NCBI RefSeq assembly: GCF_015500095.1
Contig: NZ_CP062983.1
Location: 744,001 to 808,000 of the forward strand
Length of the DNA stretch: 64,000 bases
Reading direction: 5' to 3'
Source of the DNA: Phototrophicus methaneseepsis
GTDB taxonomy: Bacteria; Chloroflexota; Anaerolineae; Aggregatilineales; Phototrophicaceae
The notes below the pieces were generated by a model that saw nothing but the letters and a program-made list of their open reading frames with translations, had not been told where the DNA came from and did not search any database. Made by a program: the position numbers and the translations under genes. This document shows positions 53,625 to 63,861 of this stretch, in pieces. Position 1 is the stretch's first letter. Each line of letters begins with the position of its first letter.

Positions 53625-55166
53625 TTAGCGCTGTAACGGCAGCCAGATATAGAAGGTCGTCCCCTTGTTTGCGACGGATGTAAAGTCGATACGCCCCCCG
53701 TGCAGCTCAACAATCTGCTTGGTGATGGGTAATCCCAGGCCCGTACCCGGCACGTTGAAGGCTTCTGCATTGCTGGCCCGATGGAACGGCTCAAACAAGC
53801 GCGGTTGGTCTTCTTCCGGGATGCCGATGCCGCTATCAGTCACAGCAATGAGCGCCTCATTGCCATCGACTTTCAGGCTAAAGACGATTTTACCGCCCTG
53901 GATTGAATATTTAATCGCGTTGGAGAGCAAATTCGTCAGAGCACGGCGCAGAAGTTTGCGATCAAGGAAAGCGCGGATAATGCGTTCGTCACACTCAAAT
54001 TCAATGCGGTGTGTCTTATGATAATTGAACTGGAATTCTTCAACGACATCACGGCAATAGGTAATCAGGTCCACATCATCAGGCTCAAGCTCAAGGCCTT
54101 CACTCTCTGAGCGGCTGAGCGTCATGACGTCGCTCACCATATCTGAGAGCAGTTCGACCTGTGTATTGATGTTATCCAACGCCTGATCGCGTTCTTCCTG
54201 GGTCGATACATGCTGATATTTCTTCAGCATATCGTGTGATAAGCGAATCGAAGCTAGTGGCGTGCGCAGTTCGTGCGACATAATAGACAAGAAGCGATTC
54301 TTGAGTTCGCGCAGTTCGCGTTCTTTTTCCAGCGCGACGGTGACACGTTCGCGCTCTAAACGCTCTTCTTCCACGCGTTTACGATCTGTAATGTCTTCAA
54401 TGATGCAGGTATACATACGGCCATTATCGAGGCGCAGCGGGCGCAGGGTCATCATGATGGGGAATTGCTCGCCATTGACGTCCACGCCTGTAAATTCATA
54501 GCCATTTTCGCCGCGCAGGGCTTTTCGCAGGGGCTCCCCTTCAAAAGGCTCCACAATGAGCGTGCCCACACACTTACCCAGCATGGTATCGTGCTGATAG
54601 CCAAAAATTTGCAGGGCTGCTTCATTGGCGCTGTGGATGCACCCATCGACATCAATGGTCAGGATGCCATTTTTAATATTGTTGACGATGGCTTCTAGCC
54701 GGTTGGTATTATCTTGTAGCTCAATCTGGACCTGTTTAAGCTCCGTCACATTTTGATGCGAGACGATAATGCGCACATCATGGTACCAGTCGAAGCGGCT
54801 GACGCGCACAACGAACCAGCGGCGCTCTACTGGGCTGTGGCAGGGATATTCCAGTTCAAACTGGCTGCGCTGGCCTGAGATAACTTCACGAATACCCTGC
54901 GACACACGCGGGCCAACATCAGCGAGAGACTCTGAAGAAGTATCACAGACAGCGAGGTAATTTGTGCCAATGCCATAAGAGCGATCAGCAAGGCTGTTTT
55001 CATCGGCGAAGGTCCGCCAGGCGCGGTTAACGCCAACGATCTGTCCGGTTTTATCCAGAATAGCTACATGTGCGGATAAAGCATCCAGAGCAGATTGGAT
55101 AAATTCTTCAGCCTCTGCATGGCCTTTTTTAGACCGTCCAGATGTGCCGGACGTTGCAAATACCAT
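53625..55166 (-). CDS. PAS-domain sensor histidine kinase
   Basis: This 513-residue soluble kinase has no membrane segment. Two PAS domains are present: about residues 27-140 (SALDALSAHVAILDKTGQIVGVNRAW) and about 155-265 (IVNNIKNGILTIDVDGCIHSANEAALQIFGY...). Then come a coiled coil, HisKA with phospho-acceptor H298 (SIMSHELRTPLASIR) and an HATPase domain with N box NLLSNAIKYS, G1 DSGIGIP and G2 GTGLGLPITKQIVELHGG. It likely senses a cytoplasmic signal, with the adjacent receiver protein as target. Confidence 0.93.
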   Translation of the reverse strand: MVFATSGTSGRSKKGHAEAEEFIQSALDALSAHVAILDKTGQIVGVNRAWRTFADENSLADRSYGIGTNYLAVCDTSSESLADVGPRVSQGIREVISGQRSQFELEYPCHSPVERRWFVVRVSRFDWYHDVRIIVSHQNVTELKQVQIELQDNTNRLEAIVNNIKNGILTIDVDGCIHSANEAALQIFGYQHDTMLGKCVGTLIVEPFEGEPLRKALRGENGYEFTGVDVNGEQFPIMMTLRPLRLDNGRMYTCIIEDITDRKRVEEERLERERVTVALEKERELRELKNRFLSIMSHELRTPLASIRLSHDMLKKYQHVSTQEERDQALDNINTQVELLSDMVSDVMTLSRSESEGLELEPDDVDLITYCRDVVEEFQFNYHKTHRIEFECDERIIRAFLDRKLLRRALTNLLSNAIKYSIQGGKIVFSLKVDGNEALIAVTDSGIGIPEEDQPRLFEPFHRASNAEAFNVPGTGLGLPITKQIVELHGGRIDFTSVANKGTTFYIWLPLQR

Positions 55167-56370: not shown

Positions 56371-56808
56371 TCAAGTAGCCCGGAGAGGGTTTTTCTCTTG
56401 ATAAGCCTGAACGTTGAGTTGGGTGATGATAGAAAGAGGCTGCGGCAGTGCGTCAAAATCAAACCAGCCGATTGCTACGCATTTCCCGGCTTCGAGGATG
56501 GCGGGTTCACCGCTGATATGGCGCGCCAAATAGGTCGGGGCAACCCAATGCTGGCCTTCTTCCGGCAGGATATGGTCATCCAGGCCCAGTAACTGCCCGA
56601 CTTCAATCACCATACCGTATTCTTCCAGGAATTCACGCGCAACAGCATCTCGCAGCGTTTCGCCAAATTCCACGCGCCCACCAGGGAACTCCCATGTTCC
56701 CCGCTCATTACCGGAGTCTTCGCCTCGCTGCGCCAGAAATACCTGGCCTGCATCGTTGAAGACGACAGCCCCCACGCCAACGCCAATATAATCACGCCCA
56801 GGCTTCAT
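56371..56808 (-). CDS. NUDIX hydrolase
   Basis: This 145-residue enzyme hydrolyses a nucleoside diphosphate linked to another group. The Nudix box GGRVEFGETLRDAVAREFLEEYG is complete with the metal-binding REFLEE core. The opening VGVGAVVFNDAGQVFLAQRG and WEFPGG are typical of MutT/ADP-ribose-type members; substrate specificity cannot be read. I chose the ATG at 56806-56808 with AGGAA upstream; a start at 56835 lies two bases past the FHA gene's stop. The two genes are almost certainly co-transcribed. Confidence 0.92.
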   Translation of the reverse strand: MKPGRDYIGVGVGAVVFNDAGQVFLAQRGEDSGNERGTWEFPGGRVEFGETLRDAVAREFLEEYGMVIEVGQLLGLDDHILPEEGQHWVAPTYLARHISGEPAILEAGKCVAIGWFDFDALPQPLSIITQLNVQAYQEKNPLRAT

Positions 56809-56837
56809 GTGGTTCCTATGCTGGCTATACTGCATGC

Positions 56838-58664
56838 TTAATCTGACGCTGAAGAATCCGACGACACGTCATCCTGGTCTGCGGGGCTGCCCGTAGAAGG
56901 ACGAGAGGGGCTCTCTGTGCCGGGCCTGGAATTATTGGTCGCATCCAACGATTCCTCCGCATCGGCAGCAGCCACGGAGGCGCTATTCGTGGTATCCTCC
57001 GGCACAGCGACCTGTTCGCTGGTCTGGGTGGGTTGTTCGCCCTTCTTCAACTCCCCTGTGCCAAAGGGTCGGGAACCGCGTTCCTGCATCGCTGCTTCGA
57101 GCTGATCCAGCTCTTGCTGCAACGCTTTGAGGGCATCTTTAGCTTCGCGCGCCGGGGTTTTGACGCTGGGCGTCTCTTCTGTTTCGGCTTTTGTTTCGAC
57201 TTTTTCAGTCTCGGCCTTTTCCGCCTTTTCACCGTCGACAGCTTCCGCAGGGCTAAGCGGTTTGATATTCAAGCTCTTGCGCACCTCATCCACAGCAGAA
57301 CTCGGCTCTGTAGATACTTTTGATTCATTTTCAACAATTTCGGCGACGTCTTCTAGCTCTTCATCAGGCTTACTGGTCGGGGTATCCGTGCGCTCTGGCG
57401 CACGCGGTGCCGGACGAGCCGAAATCGGCGCGAGGCGATCAATGGTCGCAATCACCTGCTCGTAGCTGTTGGCAGGGTATTCTTCATCGAAATCAATCGT
57501 ATCCATGTGTGCAATGATAATGGGCTTCTGGGCCACGTCGCCGTATTGCAACAAGGCAATGGCCTTCTCCTTCGCCTGGAAGTAACGAATTGCCCGCTTG
57601 ACGTGCTCCTGCACAATGGACTGCTTACTCAGTACAACGAGCAGTGCACGACACTCAAACATCGCCTGATCAAAGGCAATTTGCCAATCCTGGCTGCTGG
57701 GCAGCAAATACTGGTCCGTCCAGACGCGCACATGCCGATCTTGCAAGTACGTAAAGACCTTACTGGCCCGCGACCGCCATTCTGTACGAGCATAGACCAC
57801 CATCACATGGTCTACAAGCTGGTCTGGCTCCAGGCCGTGCCCCACGCCGGAAAGATTGGCATCCGGGGCCAATACCCCAAGCGGGGATGTCGCGTTCACA
57901 AGGGAGGTTGTGCGCCGTTTATCCGGCTTGGCGGGTATATCCTCCGGGCCAAGCTGCTCTGTCTTGGCTTCTGTCACAATCGAAGGGCGCATGCTGGCAG
58001 GGGGTCGGCTGGCATGGGCGGGGTCTTCTGTGAAGATGATCGAGAGAGACTCGCCGATTTGCAGCGTATCACCGCCTTCCAGGGCGTGCTGCTCAGTGAG
58101 TTTAACGCCATTCAAGACGGTGCCATTGGTGCTGTTGAGGTCTTCCGCGATATAGACGCTGCCACGACGAACCAGCCGCAAATGATGGCGGCTCATCTCA
58201 GGCACGTTGATGCTGATGTCGTTATCTGTCGCACGCCCGACTGTGATCGAGGACTCTCGCAGGGGTAATATGCGTGCTTTTAAGGGGGGAGGCCGCTTAA
58301 TCACCAGGTAAAAAGACGCCTCGGCATCGAGCGCAACCATGCCACGCGTCGCAGAGACATCCTCCGAGGGGACATACTCCAGCGTGATGGAATCGCCCAA
58401 TTCGATAATCTGGCGGCTGCTCAGCAGCCACGCGCGCGAATCGATGCGTTGCCCGTTGACATAAGTCCCATTCGTGCTCCCCAGATCGTGCAGCTCATAA
58501 TCATCAAGGACACGCACAAGGCGGCAGTGTTCACGGCTTACTTCATTGTCATGGATGATAATTTCATTTTTACGACCACGTCCAATATGAATCGTATCTT
58601 CAGACAGGTCAAATTCCTCGCCTAACTGTGGGCCGCGCAACATCCTTAATTTGGGCATATCCAA
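56838..58664 (-). CDS. FHA-FHA-TIR-like scaffold protein
   Basis: This 608-residue cytoplasmic protein has two forkhead-associated domains (residues about 24-95, with GRG and SREHCRL and NGTYVNG; about 136-208, with GRATDNDISI and SRHHLRL and NGTVLNG), which bind phosphothreonine peptides. A linker follows, then a TIR-like domain (about 285-410): VMVVYARTEWRSRASKVFTYLQ, VWTDQYLLPSSQDWQIAFDQAMFECRALLVVLSKQSI. The Glu expected in TIR NADases at the S..S.WV..E position reads A358. The C-terminal 200 residues are acidic low complexity with one coiled coil. It heads a transcript with a NUDIX gene. Confidence 0.82.
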   Translation of the reverse strand: MDMPKLRMLRGPQLGEEFDLSEDTIHIGRGRKNEIIIHDNEVSREHCRLVRVLDDYELHDLGSTNGTYVNGQRIDSRAWLLSSRQIIELGDSITLEYVPSEDVSATRGMVALDAEASFYLVIKRPPPLKARILPLRESSITVGRATDNDISINVPEMSRHHLRLVRRGSVYIAEDLNSTNGTVLNGVKLTEQHALEGGDTLQIGESLSIIFTEDPAHASRPPASMRPSIVTEAKTEQLGPEDIPAKPDKRRTTSLVNATSPLGVLAPDANLSGVGHGLEPDQLVDHVMVVYARTEWRSRASKVFTYLQDRHVRVWTDQYLLPSSQDWQIAFDQAMFECRALLVVLSKQSIVQEHVKRAIRYFQAKEKAIALLQYGDVAQKPIIIAHMDTIDFDEEYPANSYEQVIATIDRLAPISARPAPRAPERTDTPTSKPDEELEDVAEIVENESKVSTEPSSAVDEVRKSLNIKPLSPAEAVDGEKAEKAETEKVETKAETEETPSVKTPAREAKDALKALQQELDQLEAAMQERGSRPFGTGELKKGEQPTQTSEQVAVPEDTTNSASVAAADAEESLDATNNSRPGTESPSRPSTGSPADQDDVSSDSSASD

Positions 58665-59060: not shown

Positions 59061-60179
59061 TTATGAATCCGCTTCTTCTGTCGCTTCTTCTGTCATTTCC
59101 TCGGTAGCAGCTTCCGTGACGTCAGCCGTTGGCTCTTCCGTCACTTCTTCAGATGCGCCGACTGTGGCCGTAGGCTCCGGTGCATAAGGTGGTTCTTCCA
59201 GCCAGCCAATGATTGTAGACAGTGCATCTGCCTCGATAACAGCCACCGTATCATAATCATCAACCAGGGCATACATGCGCGTACCGGATGCGTCTGTGTC
59301 GCCCAGTTGAATCTTGAAGGTACGCTCACTGCTATCCGTCGCCTGGATCGTATAGGCCGGTTCAGCAAGGCCAAGGGCTTCCAGATCAGCACCGTCGATA
59401 GCGTCGACCGCTTCCACAAAGCCGTAAACGCTCATCAGCACCTCAACGGTACTTTGATCGAGCGCCCGGTCATCATCCAGCACTGTCCAGAGGTTATCTT
59501 CGCCACGTACCAGCACCAGCGATTCGCCGCTGGCATGATCCGTGACCTGGAAACGCTGAATATCCTGGGCGCTAAAGCCAACAAAGACCACACCGGGAGC
59601 ATTCAGCATCGGGACAGGTGTTGGTGTGGGTGGGACGACAATCGGCTGATTACTAGCAAGCCCTAAGATCGTATCCAGTGTGGTGCTGTTCACCAGATAG
59701 ATGGTTTCGTCATCGCCAACACGCACATAATAACGGTTGCCACTGGGGTTCTGGCGGCCTACCGTCAGCGTGTATTCGGTGCCATCCGCCACAAAGGTGA
59801 TGACTGCCGGGGCCGCTTCTGTGCCGAATCCGTACTGGGTGGCATCTTCCGTCTGGTAGCTATCGGTATAGCTCAGGTTCGTCAGCGTACTAACGGCTGT
59901 ATCGACAGTAGCCGCATCAACTTCATCGTCATTGCCGGGGAACTGCCATAGGGCTTCGTCAGTATCGCCACGCTGCAAACTGACGTTTAAGCCCGTGCTA
60001 TCGGTCACATTCAGGCTGGTGACGGTCTCCGGTGCGGCCTCCGTAAAGAGCACACCGCCCGCATCATCAGCGACTGTTTCCGGCCCGGTATCTTCCGGCT
60101 GGTTGAGCATCACCAGGGCCACGACGATCACGAGCAGGGCTGCAACCAGCACAATGATGGTATTTCTGTTTAAACGCAT
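59061..60179 (-). CDS. DUF4340 domain membrane-anchored protein
   Basis: This 372-residue protein has an N-terminal membrane anchor (residues 8-26) and an extracytoplasmic beta-rich DUF4340 domain (about 55-310) with repeats such as YGFGTEAAPAVITFVADGTEYTLTVGRQNPSGNRYYVRVGDDETIYLV and a second similar block (GLAEPAYTIQATDSSERTFKIQLGDTDASGTRMYALVDDYDTVAVI). Its C-terminal tail is a run of Glu/Thr units (EEVTEEPTADVTEAATEE). In other genomes DUF4340 proteins follow GldG-type genes as here. AAGGAGG is about ten bases before the ATG. Function is unknown; it may be an accessory of the exporter. Confidence 0.88.
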   Translation of the reverse strand: MRLNRNTIIVLVAALLVIVVALVMLNQPEDTGPETVADDAGGVLFTEAAPETVTSLNVTDSTGLNVSLQRGDTDEALWQFPGNDDEVDAATVDTAVSTLTNLSYTDSYQTEDATQYGFGTEAAPAVITFVADGTEYTLTVGRQNPSGNRYYVRVGDDETIYLVNSTTLDTILGLASNQPIVVPPTPTPVPMLNAPGVVFVGFSAQDIQRFQVTDHASGESLVLVRGEDNLWTVLDDDRALDQSTVEVLMSVYGFVEAVDAIDGADLEALGLAEPAYTIQATDSSERTFKIQLGDTDASGTRMYALVDDYDTVAVIEADALSTIIGWLEEPPYAPEPTATVGASEEVTEEPTADVTEAATEEMTEEATEEADS

Positions 60180-60340
60180 GAAGGATCATCCTCCTTCGCT
60201 GAGAAATCAAATTGAATCACACAAATTGAATCAGGATTGAAGACAACTGAATCAGGCACTTGATAGGTACCTGAACAGAGATACAGATTGCCCCCATCGC
60301 GGCGGTCCGTTACGTATCCACCGCGACGAGAGCATCTCGC

Positions 60341-62047
60341 TTAAATCTGTTCAATTGGCCTATCCGCTTCGGGCCGATGTTCACGATTCGCCAGCCAGAC
60401 CATGATACCAGCAGCAAGCACGCCAAATGGAATCAGGATCAGGCTTACGAAGTTGACGAAGCCCAACTGCTGATTATCCGCAATCAAGGGCGTATCCTGC
60501 GGCAAAGCATCGAAGGAGAGCGTCGGCAGGTTCGCCAGGAAGTCGTCATAGCCAATGGCGTACAACATGCTCTGGATAGCGGCATCGAAGTTACGGAAGT
60601 AACCAGTCAACTGCCGCCACTGATTTTCCGCCAGGGTATCCGCGCCCCAGATGACGGCCATAGAGCCGGTCTGGCTGTTGGTGACAGCAGCACCCATAGG
60701 CAGAGCACCTGTTGCATCCGTATCAGCGGCTTCCAGGTCTTGCTGGCTAATCTCCTGGGAGAAGTCCAGGCCCGTCTTGGCATACGCATTCGGCCCCGTT
60801 GTCGCCAATACCGATACCGTCACGCCTTCCGGCAGTGTATCCGCAATGGTCAGACTGTGGGGGAAGTTCAGCCGCAGCGTATCGTTGCTGGTGTAGCTAT
60901 CCGTGATGCTATCCGCGCCGAAGTTAAAGACATCCAGCTCCACCGCAGAAGAAGACCCTTCTGGATCAATCACCAGGTCATTATTGACCGTGACGCCGTA
61001 GTATTCTTGCAGCAGAGCGGCCATATTCGGCGCTGTTGCTAACGAATCATCGCCTTCCAGGTTGGGGCCTGTCAGCACGACCAGATCGCCGCCATTGGCA
61101 ATGTAATCGCGCAGTGCATCTACCGCATTATCGGGTAGCGGGCTGCCACCACCCGGTATGACGATAATTTCGCCATCTTCAGCCGTGCCTAACTGCGGAC
61201 CGCTCTCCGGATTGGTCAGTTCTGCCACAGTCAGCGGTTCAACCGTCCAGTTGAGGTTATCACGCAGTAAGGTCGTGATAATCGTCCCGCCGCCGGCTTC
61301 TGCATTGTCGATGTCGATACCATTATCGACGACAAGCCAGTACACGCGGAAATCACCCAGCGCCGAGGCCGTAATCATCGCATCGACGATCACGCGCTGA
61401 TCCGCTACAGTAACAGGCGTGGCTTCTTCGATGTTATCCGTGCCATCTTCATTGAGCGGCACCACAAACAGCGTCCCAGGTGACGCGCCATAGGTTTCAG
61501 CGAGGCCCGGTTCACGGTCAGGGTCATAGATCGTATAACTGACTTTACTGCCGCCTGCATCTGCAAATTCTTGCAGCAGGACTTCCGTTTGTTCCTGCGA
61601 ATCGGCCATATCGCTGGTGAAGAAGCCAACAATCCGCAAGGATGGCGTGTTGGGGTCCGCTGCAATGATTTCGACTGTTTCACGGGTGGCATCCGTCAGC
61701 GTGAAGGCGTTGCTGCCGCTGTAATCGACGCGCCAGTTTTGCTCCCGGACGACGATGTATACCAGCACAGCCGCCACCACCAGGATGACAGTCACAAGCA
61801 CAGCCGTACCACCATAAGCAACAGCACGCCCGCGCAGTAGATCCGTGACCTGTTCCGGGGCTAATAGGCCCCACATCACAAGGGAGAGGGCACTCACGAC
61901 CAGCGCGCCAATACCAACGACCGACAAACTGCCGGAAGTCAGCCAGACGCCCAGGGCAACAACCAACCCAGCAACAGCAATCCATATCAGGTAAATCGGC
62001 GGAATCACCGGGCGCTCTGGCGTGTTGGAGACGTTATGTTCGCTCAT
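60341..62047 (-). CDS. GldG-like ABC transporter auxiliary membrane protein
   Basis: This 568-residue protein has three or four membrane segments in residues 17-105, a large extracytoplasmic region (about 110-520) of alpha/beta type with IIVIPGGGSPLPDNAVDALRDYIANGGDLVVLTGPN, and a C-terminal membrane segment (about 535-555). This is the PF09822 (ABC_transp_aux, GldG) layout. It partners the ABC-2 permease and ATPase encoded upstream. In Bacteroidota the homologues serve gliding motility; here no gliding genes are seen, so a general envelope role is safer. Confidence 0.88.
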   Translation of the reverse strand: MSEHNVSNTPERPVIPPIYLIWIAVAGLVVALGVWLTSGSLSVVGIGALVVSALSLVMWGLLAPEQVTDLLRGRAVAYGGTAVLVTVILVVAAVLVYIVVREQNWRVDYSGSNAFTLTDATRETVEIIAADPNTPSLRIVGFFTSDMADSQEQTEVLLQEFADAGGSKVSYTIYDPDREPGLAETYGASPGTLFVVPLNEDGTDNIEEATPVTVADQRVIVDAMITASALGDFRVYWLVVDNGIDIDNAEAGGGTIITTLLRDNLNWTVEPLTVAELTNPESGPQLGTAEDGEIIVIPGGGSPLPDNAVDALRDYIANGGDLVVLTGPNLEGDDSLATAPNMAALLQEYYGVTVNNDLVIDPEGSSSAVELDVFNFGADSITDSYTSNDTLRLNFPHSLTIADTLPEGVTVSVLATTGPNAYAKTGLDFSQEISQQDLEAADTDATGALPMGAAVTNSQTGSMAVIWGADTLAENQWRQLTGYFRNFDAAIQSMLYAIGYDDFLANLPTLSFDALPQDTPLIADNQQLGFVNFVSLILIPFGVLAAGIMVWLANREHRPEADRPIEQI

Positions 62048-62068
62048 AAATCAAAACTCCTCTGCCGG

Positions 62069-62842
62069 TTAGTTACTGCGCCAACGGCGCGACCCGACGA
62101 TTAAGGTGGTGATGAACAGCGAGATGCCCATGATAAGCACAAAATAGATCACATCATGAGCCTGCAACAAACCGCTGAGCATCCGAGCTTGGTAGTGCAC
62201 GACGAGGCCAACTTCACGCATGAAATCGGCGGCACCTGCGCCCAGGGTGTTGCCAATCAGGCCAGAAAATGAACTGGCAAGATATAGCACCAGGATCGTC
62301 GCCGCCCCCAGGAAAGCCGCTACAAGCTGGTCTTCGCTCACGGCTGACCACACCAGCGCCAATGCCAGCACAGCCCCACCATAGAGCCACGCGCCAAAAT
62401 ACGCGCTAAAGACCATGCCTGCCGTGGGCACACCCATCGCTGTTAGCAATACCACATAGATGAGCGTCAGTAATTCGATGAAGGTGAAAACAGCCCACAC
62501 CGCTAGGAACTTACCGATCACAAAGGCCCAGTCATTCATCGGTAGGGTCATCAGGACCTCTAGCGTCCCTTCACGCTGCTCCTCCGCTAGCAACCGCATG
62601 GTGAGCAAGGGTGCGAAGATGAACAGCAGGAAGGTGAACAGGCCCATATAATCGCCAACAGCATTATTCGCCGTCACCAATTGTTGTGCAAACTGCGATT
62701 GGTTATTGGCGGAATAGCTAGCCACAATCGTGCTGAAGACCAACCCCATCAACAGCATCAGCGCAAAAGCGATCACGTAGATGATCGGCGACCGGAAGAA
62801 GAGGGCGAGCTCACGTTTGAATACAGCCCATACAGCTCTCAT
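62069..62842 (-). CDS. ABC-2 type permease (GldF-like)
   Basis: This 257-residue six-helix permease has an N-terminal cytoplasmic part MRAVWAVFKRELALFFRSPIIYVIAFALMLLMGLVF, the loop EEQREGTLEVLMTLPMNDW (the ABC-2 coupling-type loop), and helices through residue 250. Length and pairing with a GldG-like protein fit GldF. The start codon overlaps the ATPase stop by four bases, so the two are translationally coupled. Confidence 0.92.
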   Translation of the reverse strand: MRAVWAVFKRELALFFRSPIIYVIAFALMLLMGLVFSTIVASYSANNQSQFAQQLVTANNAVGDYMGLFTFLLFIFAPLLTMRLLAEEQREGTLEVLMTLPMNDWAFVIGKFLAVWAVFTFIELLTLIYVVLLTAMGVPTAGMVFSAYFGAWLYGGAVLALALVWSAVSEDQLVAAFLGAATILVLYLASSFSGLIGNTLGAGAADFMREVGLVVHYQARMLSGLLQAHDVIYFVLIMGISLFITTLIVGSRRWRSN

Positions 62843-63861
62843 GCCTGTGCCTCCTCTTCGTGTGATTGGTTTTCTTTCGGTTGGTTCTCTCTGAGCGCGG
62901 CCTTGAGGGCTTCTTGCTGCTCAGCAGCATGGCGGGCTTCGCTCAGGCTGGCCTGACGCGTTAGTTCAATGAAGATGTCTTCCAGGTCGACCGCCAGCGG
63001 GCGCACTTCCAGCAAATTGACCCCAGCGGCGACAATCGCTTCGACAATGCCAGCACGCGGGTCCGGTGCGCCTGTGCGCGGCGTCACGATAAAGCCGCCC
63101 AACTCCCGCGAGACATTGCTCACACCATCGACAGCCCGGATTGTATCCAGCATCGCAGCGGAATCCCCTTCGACGCGGACCAGCACACGTGCGCCACGTT
63201 CAAGGCGGCTTCGCAGTTCGCTCGGCGAGCCCTGGGCGATGATCTGCCCCTGGTTGATAATCACAACCTTATCGCAGACGCGCTCAGCCTCGCTCAAAAT
63301 ATGCGTGCTGAACAAAACCGTATGATCCCGGCCCAGTTCCTGCACTAAGCCGCGTAATTCCAGCACCTGGAAAGGGTCCAGGCCAATGGTCGGTTCATCG
63401 AGTATAAGCACATCCGGGTTATGGATGAGGGCAGCAGCCAGGCCCACGCGCTGCTTCATGCCTTTGGATAATGTACGAATACGGCTGTTGGCCCGTTGGA
63501 GTAGGCCCACACGGTCCAGCACTTCATCCGCTCTCTGGCGACGCTTAGCCAAACCGCGAATTTCCGCAATATACATCAGGTAGCCACGGGCACTCATGTC
63601 CCGGTAAAGGGGCACATTCTCCGGCAAATAGCCAACGCGCTTGCGCACTTCCAGGCTTTCCTGGAAGACATCGTGCCCAGCGACGACAGCTTTACCCGCC
63701 GTTGGCGGCGAAAAGCCCGTCAGCATGCGCATGGTCGTGGTTTTCCCTGCGCCATTCGGGCCCAGAAAACCTGTGACCTGACCCGGTTCTGCTGTAAAGC
63801 TAATGTTATTGACGACAGTCACATCGCCGTATCGTTTGGTCAGATTTTCGACTTCGATCAA
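62839..63861 (-). CDS. ABC exporter ATP-binding protein (GldA-like)
   Basis: This 340-residue ATPase has Walker A GPNGAGKTTT, signature LSKGMKQRVGLA, Walker B VLILDEPTIGLD and the switch His in LFSTHI. It has a C-terminal extension (about 220-340) ending in a charged coiled coil. The start is a TTG (63859-63861, MIEVENLTKRYG), supported by AAGGAG at 63869-63874. The gene heads the operon of permease, GldG-like and DUF4340 genes. A TATAAT-like leftward -10 lies at 63943-63948, but its -35 is not clear. Confidence 0.9.
   Translation of the reverse strand: MIEVENLTKRYGDVTVVNNISFTAEPGQVTGFLGPNGAGKTTTMRMLTGFSPPTAGKAVVAGHDVFQESLEVRKRVGYLPENVPLYRDMSARGYLMYIAEIRGLAKRRQRADEVLDRVGLLQRANSRIRTLSKGMKQRVGLAAALIHNPDVLILDEPTIGLDPFQVLELRGLVQELGRDHTVLFSTHILSEAERVCDKVVIINQGQIIAQGSPSELRSRLERGARVLVRVEGDSAAMLDTIRAVDGVSNVSRELGGFIVTPRTGAPDPRAGIVEAIVAAGVNLLEVRPLAVDLEDIFIELTRQASLSEARHAAEQQEALKAALRENQPKENQSHEEEAQA

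Follow-up and report, generated by a model that had tools for sequence, protein, structure and literature searches.

FHA-FHA-TIR proteins of a Chloroflexota family mostly lack the TIR catalytic glutamate and probably act as signaling adaptors

What does a bacterial protein do that joins two FHA domains to a TIR domain, and does the NUDIX hydrolase gene that directly follows it belong to the same system? The question arises from a 64,000-nucleotide stretch of the Phototrophicus methaneseepsis genome (the window). TIR domains are NAD-cleaving enzymes or scaffolds, and FHA domains read phosphothreonine. A sequence-only reading of the window had favored a scaffold or receptor over an NADase and had suggested, from the pairing of the FHA-FHA-TIR (FFT) and NUDIX genes, phosphothreonine-controlled nucleotide signaling. 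Here, FFT is found to be probably a signaling adaptor rather than an enzyme, because the NAD-cutting glutamate is gone in nearly all observed members of its ortholog group, and the NUDIX gene is an incidental local neighbor. Coordinates of all features are collected in the table.

Features of the window around the FFT gene (residues are counted from the TTG start)
Feature	Coordinates	Strand	Remarks
PAS histidine kinase gene	53625..55166	(-)	no GAF match; differs from the GAF-PAS kinase that follows FFT elsewhere
NUDIX gene (P0002)	56371..56835	(-)	genus-specific neighbor of FFT
FFT gene	56838..58664	(-)	608 aa from TTG; orthologs found
Acidic tail, about residues 416–608	56841..57419	(-)	confined to this genus as seen
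TIR domain, residues 287–403	57456..57806	(-)	A358 at the catalytic-Glu column
Disordered linker, residues 225–274	57843..57992	(-)	pLDDT <50
FHA2 and flanks, about residues 120–212	58029..58307	(-)	second FHA stretch; model strands 118–212; R144, S158, H161, N180 present
FHA1 and flanks, about residues 3–93	58387..58658	(-)	best Pfam stretch 26–90; R29, S43, H46, N65 present
ABC ATPase, ABC-2 permease, GldG-like (ABC_transp_aux) and DUF4340 genes	59061..63861	(-)	Pfam; upstream of FFT

The domain layout proposed earlier, with two FHA domains, a TIR-like domain, and an acidic tail in one protein, was borne out by Pfam, which finds two stretches of FHA (124.8 bits against a cut-off of 20.7), followed by TIR_2 (48.6 bits against 28). 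The numbering used then, from the TTG, is kept here, but the ATG at 58658, two codons into that frame, is the likelier start because the majority of orthologs begin at the corresponding position. Beyond about residue 415, the window protein has the tail, and so does its congener; the other aligned TIR-bearing orthologs stop soon past the TIR domain. Each FHA domain of the window protein combines its profile match with the Arg/Ser/His/Asn signature, whose residues we take to have phosphopeptide-binding roles, and is thus a predicted phosphothreonine reader. FHA1 scored 124 bits against the NCBIfam model FhaB (cut-off 125).

An AlphaFold model of residues 1–420, built with 34 sequences, averages a pLDDT of 85, and its pTM of 0.43 leaves the relative placement of the domains uncertain. 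Its FHA part has structural matches to the FHA domains of DgcB, GarA, and OdhI; GarA/OdhI and FhaB, like FFT in FHA fold or profile, differ from it as single-FHA regulators without a TIR domain. Because Foldseek with the whole model showed only FHA matches among the 50 listed, the TIR region was predicted alone (mean pLDDT 93, pTM 0.87). Aligned with VIA-align, this model matches the TIR domains of SPARTA TIR-APAZ (Z 16.9), SARM1 (Z 15.8), MyD88 (Z 15.0, rmsd 2.9, 128 aligned), and AbTir (Z 14.2), so that the region at residues 285–410, previously called TIR-like, has a predicted TIR fold and no other. The window TIR sequence had no phmmer match in the PDB at E values up to 0.1, and a profile of the family TIRs did find matches there, the best being AbTir (E 1.1e-5), with MyD88 also among the best (E 1.7e-4).

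A first set of 40 FFT proteins comprises the window protein, 36 proteins from a contig pattern scan, and three from a genome search. The scan patterns lie in FHA1 and detect close relatives only; its 38 loci were the 36 FFT genes, one FHA fragment at a contig end, and one FHA-only match. A TIR profile searched against 154 genomes of the order added 12 more, for 52 in all. FFT with a TIR domain occurs in 25 of the 37 genomes searched in the GTDB family, our own included, and in none of 24 genomes from other families of the order. Strong profile hits in frames of FFT size all fell within this family, and the strongest from another family (L175 and L176) keep the glutamate and have no FHA domain in Pfam. 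The weakest family member scores below two hits from other families, in G055 (E 4e-32) and G221 (E 8e-32), which lie in frames of 135 and 141 aa. The counterpart of FFT in G031 (L062:4218-6103 (-)) consists of two FHA domains without a TIR, is followed by a 219-aa FHA gene, and was excluded from the FFT counts.

The decisive column of the TIR domain is that of the catalytic glutamate. Residue 358 is alanine, exactly as had been proposed, and lies opposite the glutamate of the AbTir DWTNYE stretch in the profile alignment; MyD88 has glutamine in the same column. This glutamate (E208 in AbTir) is treated as catalytically important in PMC11374754, where most bacterial TIR NADases are described as relying on it, and more than 70% of TIR domains are stated to have it (PMC7075850). 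Among the FFT orthologs it is missing in 48 of 52. Four proteins of the first set, L122 and L134 among them, keep it and 36 have other letters, and none of the 12 later ones has it. In its place stand alanine (25), serine (7), asparagine and glutamine (3 each), threonine, isoleucine, and methionine (2 each), and lysine, valine, leucine, and histidine once each, making 11 non-Glu letters. These counts include L156, which is cut at a contig start, and L061, where a gap beside the column leaves H or A, non-Glu either way; L052 (Gln) and L056 (Ala, N-terminus cut) stand outside the 52. Nor does the window protein have the WxxxE motif, with H354 and A358 at the two positions, and the Trp column holds Tyr in 21, His in nine, and Trp in none of 40 proteins. 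FFT shares the fold of the NADases AbTir and SARM1 and differs from them in lacking both the glutamate and the Trp four residues ahead of it.

We compared the 52 orthologs with 11 outgroup TIRs, of which eight are non-FHA proteins picked from the 13 next-best places of the TIR-profile search and three (L066, L069, and L080) are paralogs from this genome. The FFT proteins form one clade (support 100/99.6), and all 11 chosen outgroup rows keep the glutamate; the three paralogs were Glu-bearing ones only, and among 12 other TIRs of this genome that were aligned, 10 have the glutamate and two (L088 and L089) do not. A single group of the 36 Glu-less rows in the 40-row set, as expected from one loss, was rejected (p-AU 0.003), and so was a single clade of the four Glu-keeping rows (p-AU 1.6e-9, full-length tree). 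By parsimony, the column switched between Glu and non-Glu four times on the tree of 63 rows and three times on the full-length tree of 40, counts that do not tell loss from gain. Loss is favored because the outgroup bears glutamate, and a Glu-bearing ancestor followed by several losses would be the simplest account of these sequences, within which glutamate may also have been regained. From the four orthologs that keep it, the ancestral role of FFT was probably enzymatic.

The TIR domain is not decaying. Y291, W296, W315, Q318, W327, and F362 are invariant in all 40 proteins of the first set, so the domain has been maintained while the catalytic column varies freely. Conservation extends to the FHA domains. 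G143, R144, S158, H161, and N180 of FHA2 are invariant in 40 of 40, as are G28, S43, and H46 of FHA1. R29 and N65 of FHA1 are jointly replaced by Ser and Arg in 11 of the 40 (among L105–L125), all with FHA2 intact, and the loss of R29 maps to one change on the tree. A kinase-site motif was sought in the linker between FHA2 and TIR and rejected: a basic residue at most three positions before a Thr occurs in 37 of 40 linkers, compared with a mean of 34.1 (maximum 38) in shuffled ones.

These results support the scaffold or receptor role over an NADase, as the TIR fold, the missing glutamate, and the FHA signatures all point that way at the level of sequence and model. We read FFT as a phosphothreonine-reading TIR adaptor that would act by TIR-TIR contact with catalytic TIRs, and put the probability of this at about one half. 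Its anatomy is consistent with such a role, with two predicted phosphothreonine readers, a disordered linker, and a TIR domain unable to work by the known mechanism. The FHA domains would dock on threonine-phosphorylated partners made by the Ser/Thr kinases of the cell. The TIR domain would descend from Glu-bearing, NADase-type TIRs and, now without the catalytic glutamate, would presumably be inactive as an NADase; it may instead nucleate, recruit, or restrain catalytic TIRs of the same cell, probably through contact with some of the 31 other TIR places in the genome.

By analogy, MyD88 in animals and ThsB1, which serves ThsB2 in the Thoeris system of Staphylococcus, would be precedents for this way of working. 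MyD88 resembles FFT in fold and in a catalytic column without glutamate; its partner domain is a death domain, whereas Pfam finds only FHA and TIR in FFT, which thus falls outside the MyD88 type by domain content. The likeness is one of adaptor-like working and implies no shared descent of the adaptor role. ThsB1 is described as a TIR protein with a dispensable putative active site that recruits the catalytic ThsB2 (PMC11312562). In contrast to FFT, it keeps the glutamate, senses a phage capsid protein, and has no FHA domain. No ThsA-like effector of SIR2 or macro type was found in the 10 window genes scanned with Pfam, and PADLOC has no model for FFT (P0001) and matched neither it nor the NUDIX protein to a Thoeris model. 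Among the nearest TIRs found are proteins of the receiver-GAF-TIR and receiver-TIR types from the same order (L177–L179, L181, and L080), which have the same helix around the glutamate column and differ from FFT in keeping the glutamate and in having receiver or GAF input in place of FHA.

Candidate partners of the adaptor abound in the genome, a single contig of 5,631,885 bases from strain ZRK33, which is described as a filamentous Chloroflexota isolate from the deep sea (PMC8941918). Over the Pfam cut-offs, it contains 32 TIR_2, 30 FHA, and 19 Ser/Thr kinase places. As to a Ser/Thr kinase gene nearby, a check suggested by the sequence-only reading, the closest of these kinase places is 70 kb from FFT. 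By profile, the nearest to FFT among 30 TIRs of its own genome scored is a response-regulator-TIR protein with the glutamate (L080:2274-3179 (+)), a candidate partner. Other fusions of the two domains are also present: L064 is FHA-FHA-TIR with the glutamate and groups with another TIR, and L069 and L070 have the order TIR-FHA, likewise with the glutamate.

Several observations run against the adaptor reading. Four orthologs keep the glutamate, R29 and N65 of FHA1 are gone in 11 of 40, and the placement of the domains in the model is uncertain (pTM 0.43). Absence of the glutamate is not peculiar to FHA fusions, as L088 and L089 lack it in the same genome. The 28 unfused TIR places are not clustered with FHA or kinase places beyond chance at 3, 5, or 10 kb, and the linker motif did no better than shuffles.

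TIR domains are unusually numerous in this genome (G000:C1, loci L001–L009, L064, and L066–L095). A TIR_2 match was present in 71 of 150 genomes sampled from the class. Members of the order with TIR_2 among the matches listed (n = 8) have from 8 to at least 27 each, and six of the 63 other TIR_2-bearing genomes of the class have eight or more. Several TIR proteins of the genome have C-terminal parts that by eye resemble FGE-sulfatase, WD40, TPR, or pentapeptide sequences. The Glu-less L088 (L088:2472-3230 (-)) carries a zinc-ribbon-like DUF5679 domain, and its gene is convergent with that of a Ser/Thr kinase protein that has, by eye, a NACHT-like NTPase stretch.

The neighbors of FFT bear on a different account, in which it works in a two-component pathway with a downstream GAF-PAS histidine kinase and its FHA domains are docking modules. 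Such a kinase, defined by at least 45% identity over at least 70% to the GAF-PAS-HisKA-HATPase protein of L049, lies downstream, on the FFT strand and no more than two genes away, in 21 of 40 and three of 12 loci (24 of 52). The count for the 12 later loci may be low because they have only about 2–3 kb of downstream flank; among the 40, L119 and L123 end inside a kinase-like gene and were left uncounted. All four Glu-keeping genes are among these, with the kinase directly next or one gene on, and four of eight fetched relatives of the FFT TIR are receiver-GAF-TIR proteins. Set against this, the search of both Phototrophicus genomes yielded no ortholog of the kinase (the best matches reach 29% across most of the length and 41% across the kinase half), the association changes eight times on the tree, and the specificity of FHA domains is for phosphothreonine, not phospho-His or phospho-Asp. 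We consider a two-component role unlikely. Of the 40 loci, 15 have GldG-like and/or DUF4340 genes upstream in the orientation of FFT, and the window shares this cluster; papers listed for GldG and DUF4340 concern gliding motility. The neighbor counts for the 40 loci are lower bounds because contig ends cut several of them. A DNA methylase gene with a RAMA domain directly follows FFT in four of 40 loci; it is seen at L050:6869-7936 (-) and also behind FFT in L132, L134, L122, and L131.

Pocket-side residues typical of TIRs are retained (W315 in all 40 proteins, D317 in 35 of them), which would fit instead a nucleotide sensor, a pseudoenzyme TIR that would bind NAD or an ADP-ribose product and relay the signal through the FHA domains. 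AbTir is reported to depend on D167 (PMC11374754), an Asp located, by our alignment, in the equivalent strand. The absence of the WxxxE Trp from all 40 proteins speaks against a sensor, and conservation of core residues may equally serve folding; this account seems to us improbable.

Enzymatic activity through a different residue, as an NADase or a related hydrolase, is less probable again. It would fit the conserved TIR core and the four members with glutamate, but no consistent substitute appears among the 11 other letters in the column, and most bacterial TIR NADases reportedly depend on the glutamate (PMC11374754).

The NUDIX gene does lie directly after FFT, as first described, and the two are probably co-transcribed in the window. 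Its product is a NUDIX protein by PF00293 (75.1 bits, cut-off 21.1) with a full Nudix box (GRVEFGE...REFLEEYGM). The first ATG is 2 bases past the FFT stop, although the ATG at 56808 fits the orthologs better; in the congener, the two genes overlap by 4 bases. The proposal that the pair forms a functional unit is not supported by its distribution. The NUDIX gene adjoins FFT in two of 40 loci (the window and the congener) and in none of the 12 further loci, so two of 52 overall, and adjacency is restricted to the two genomes of the genus. Orthologs of at least 58% identity occur in nine of 36 other family genomes, all of which have FFT, with the two genes on different contigs in eight and adjacent in one; neighbors vary among the NUDIX loci fetched, and G042, from another family, has a 52% ortholog and no FFT gene. 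A Pro lies 16 residues past the box in 11 of 11 aligned orthologs, which we take to be a mark of ADP-ribose pyrophosphatases, and one of 14 PDB matches is named as such (4kyx). Among named families, the top scores go to MutT, which stays below its cut-off, and to MutT/Nudix hydrolase 1, with no NCBIfam model above its cut-off, and we read the PADLOC match of P0002 to the candidate PDC-S07 as a general NUDIX match. A phosphothreonine-controlled ADP-ribose system of FFT and NUDIX, for which adjacency within the genus, co-occurrence in the family, and the Pro can be cited, is thus highly improbable given two adjacencies in 52 loci, an ortholog without FFT, MutT-like best families, and a TIR domain without the glutamate needed to make the substrate.

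Each single part of FFT is of a known kind. No FHA-TIR fusion was found in the open-licence literature searched, whose consulted parts name FHA and TIR as separate components of conflict systems, not fused; the FHA-FHA-TIR combination with repeated loss of the glutamate within one bacterial family is new as far as that literature goes. One orthologous family thus holds both sequence states of the TIR domain, together with predicted phosphothreonine readers. If FFT does bind catalytic TIRs, kinase signaling would be tied to bacterial TIR immunity or cell-death circuits, and the change from enzyme to scaffold could be tested with natural sequence pairs, some FFT proteins still having the glutamate. 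The fuller claim, that FFT is a bacterial counterpart of MyD88, a phosphothreonine-gated TIR pseudoenzyme with repeated glutamate loss that couples kinases to the assembly of catalytic TIRs, is tentative and on balance doubtful.

Two other proteins, L180:676-2385 (+) and L182:559-2406 (+), are fusions of a phage tail sheath domain (PF04984; E 8e-17 and 5e-14) with a Glu-bearing TIR domain from the group nearest FFT. Their wider loci (L183 and L184) had no other tail genes in Pfam among the 10 and nine frames scanned. Genes for DnaK and for a secreted-repeat lipoprotein lie near both.
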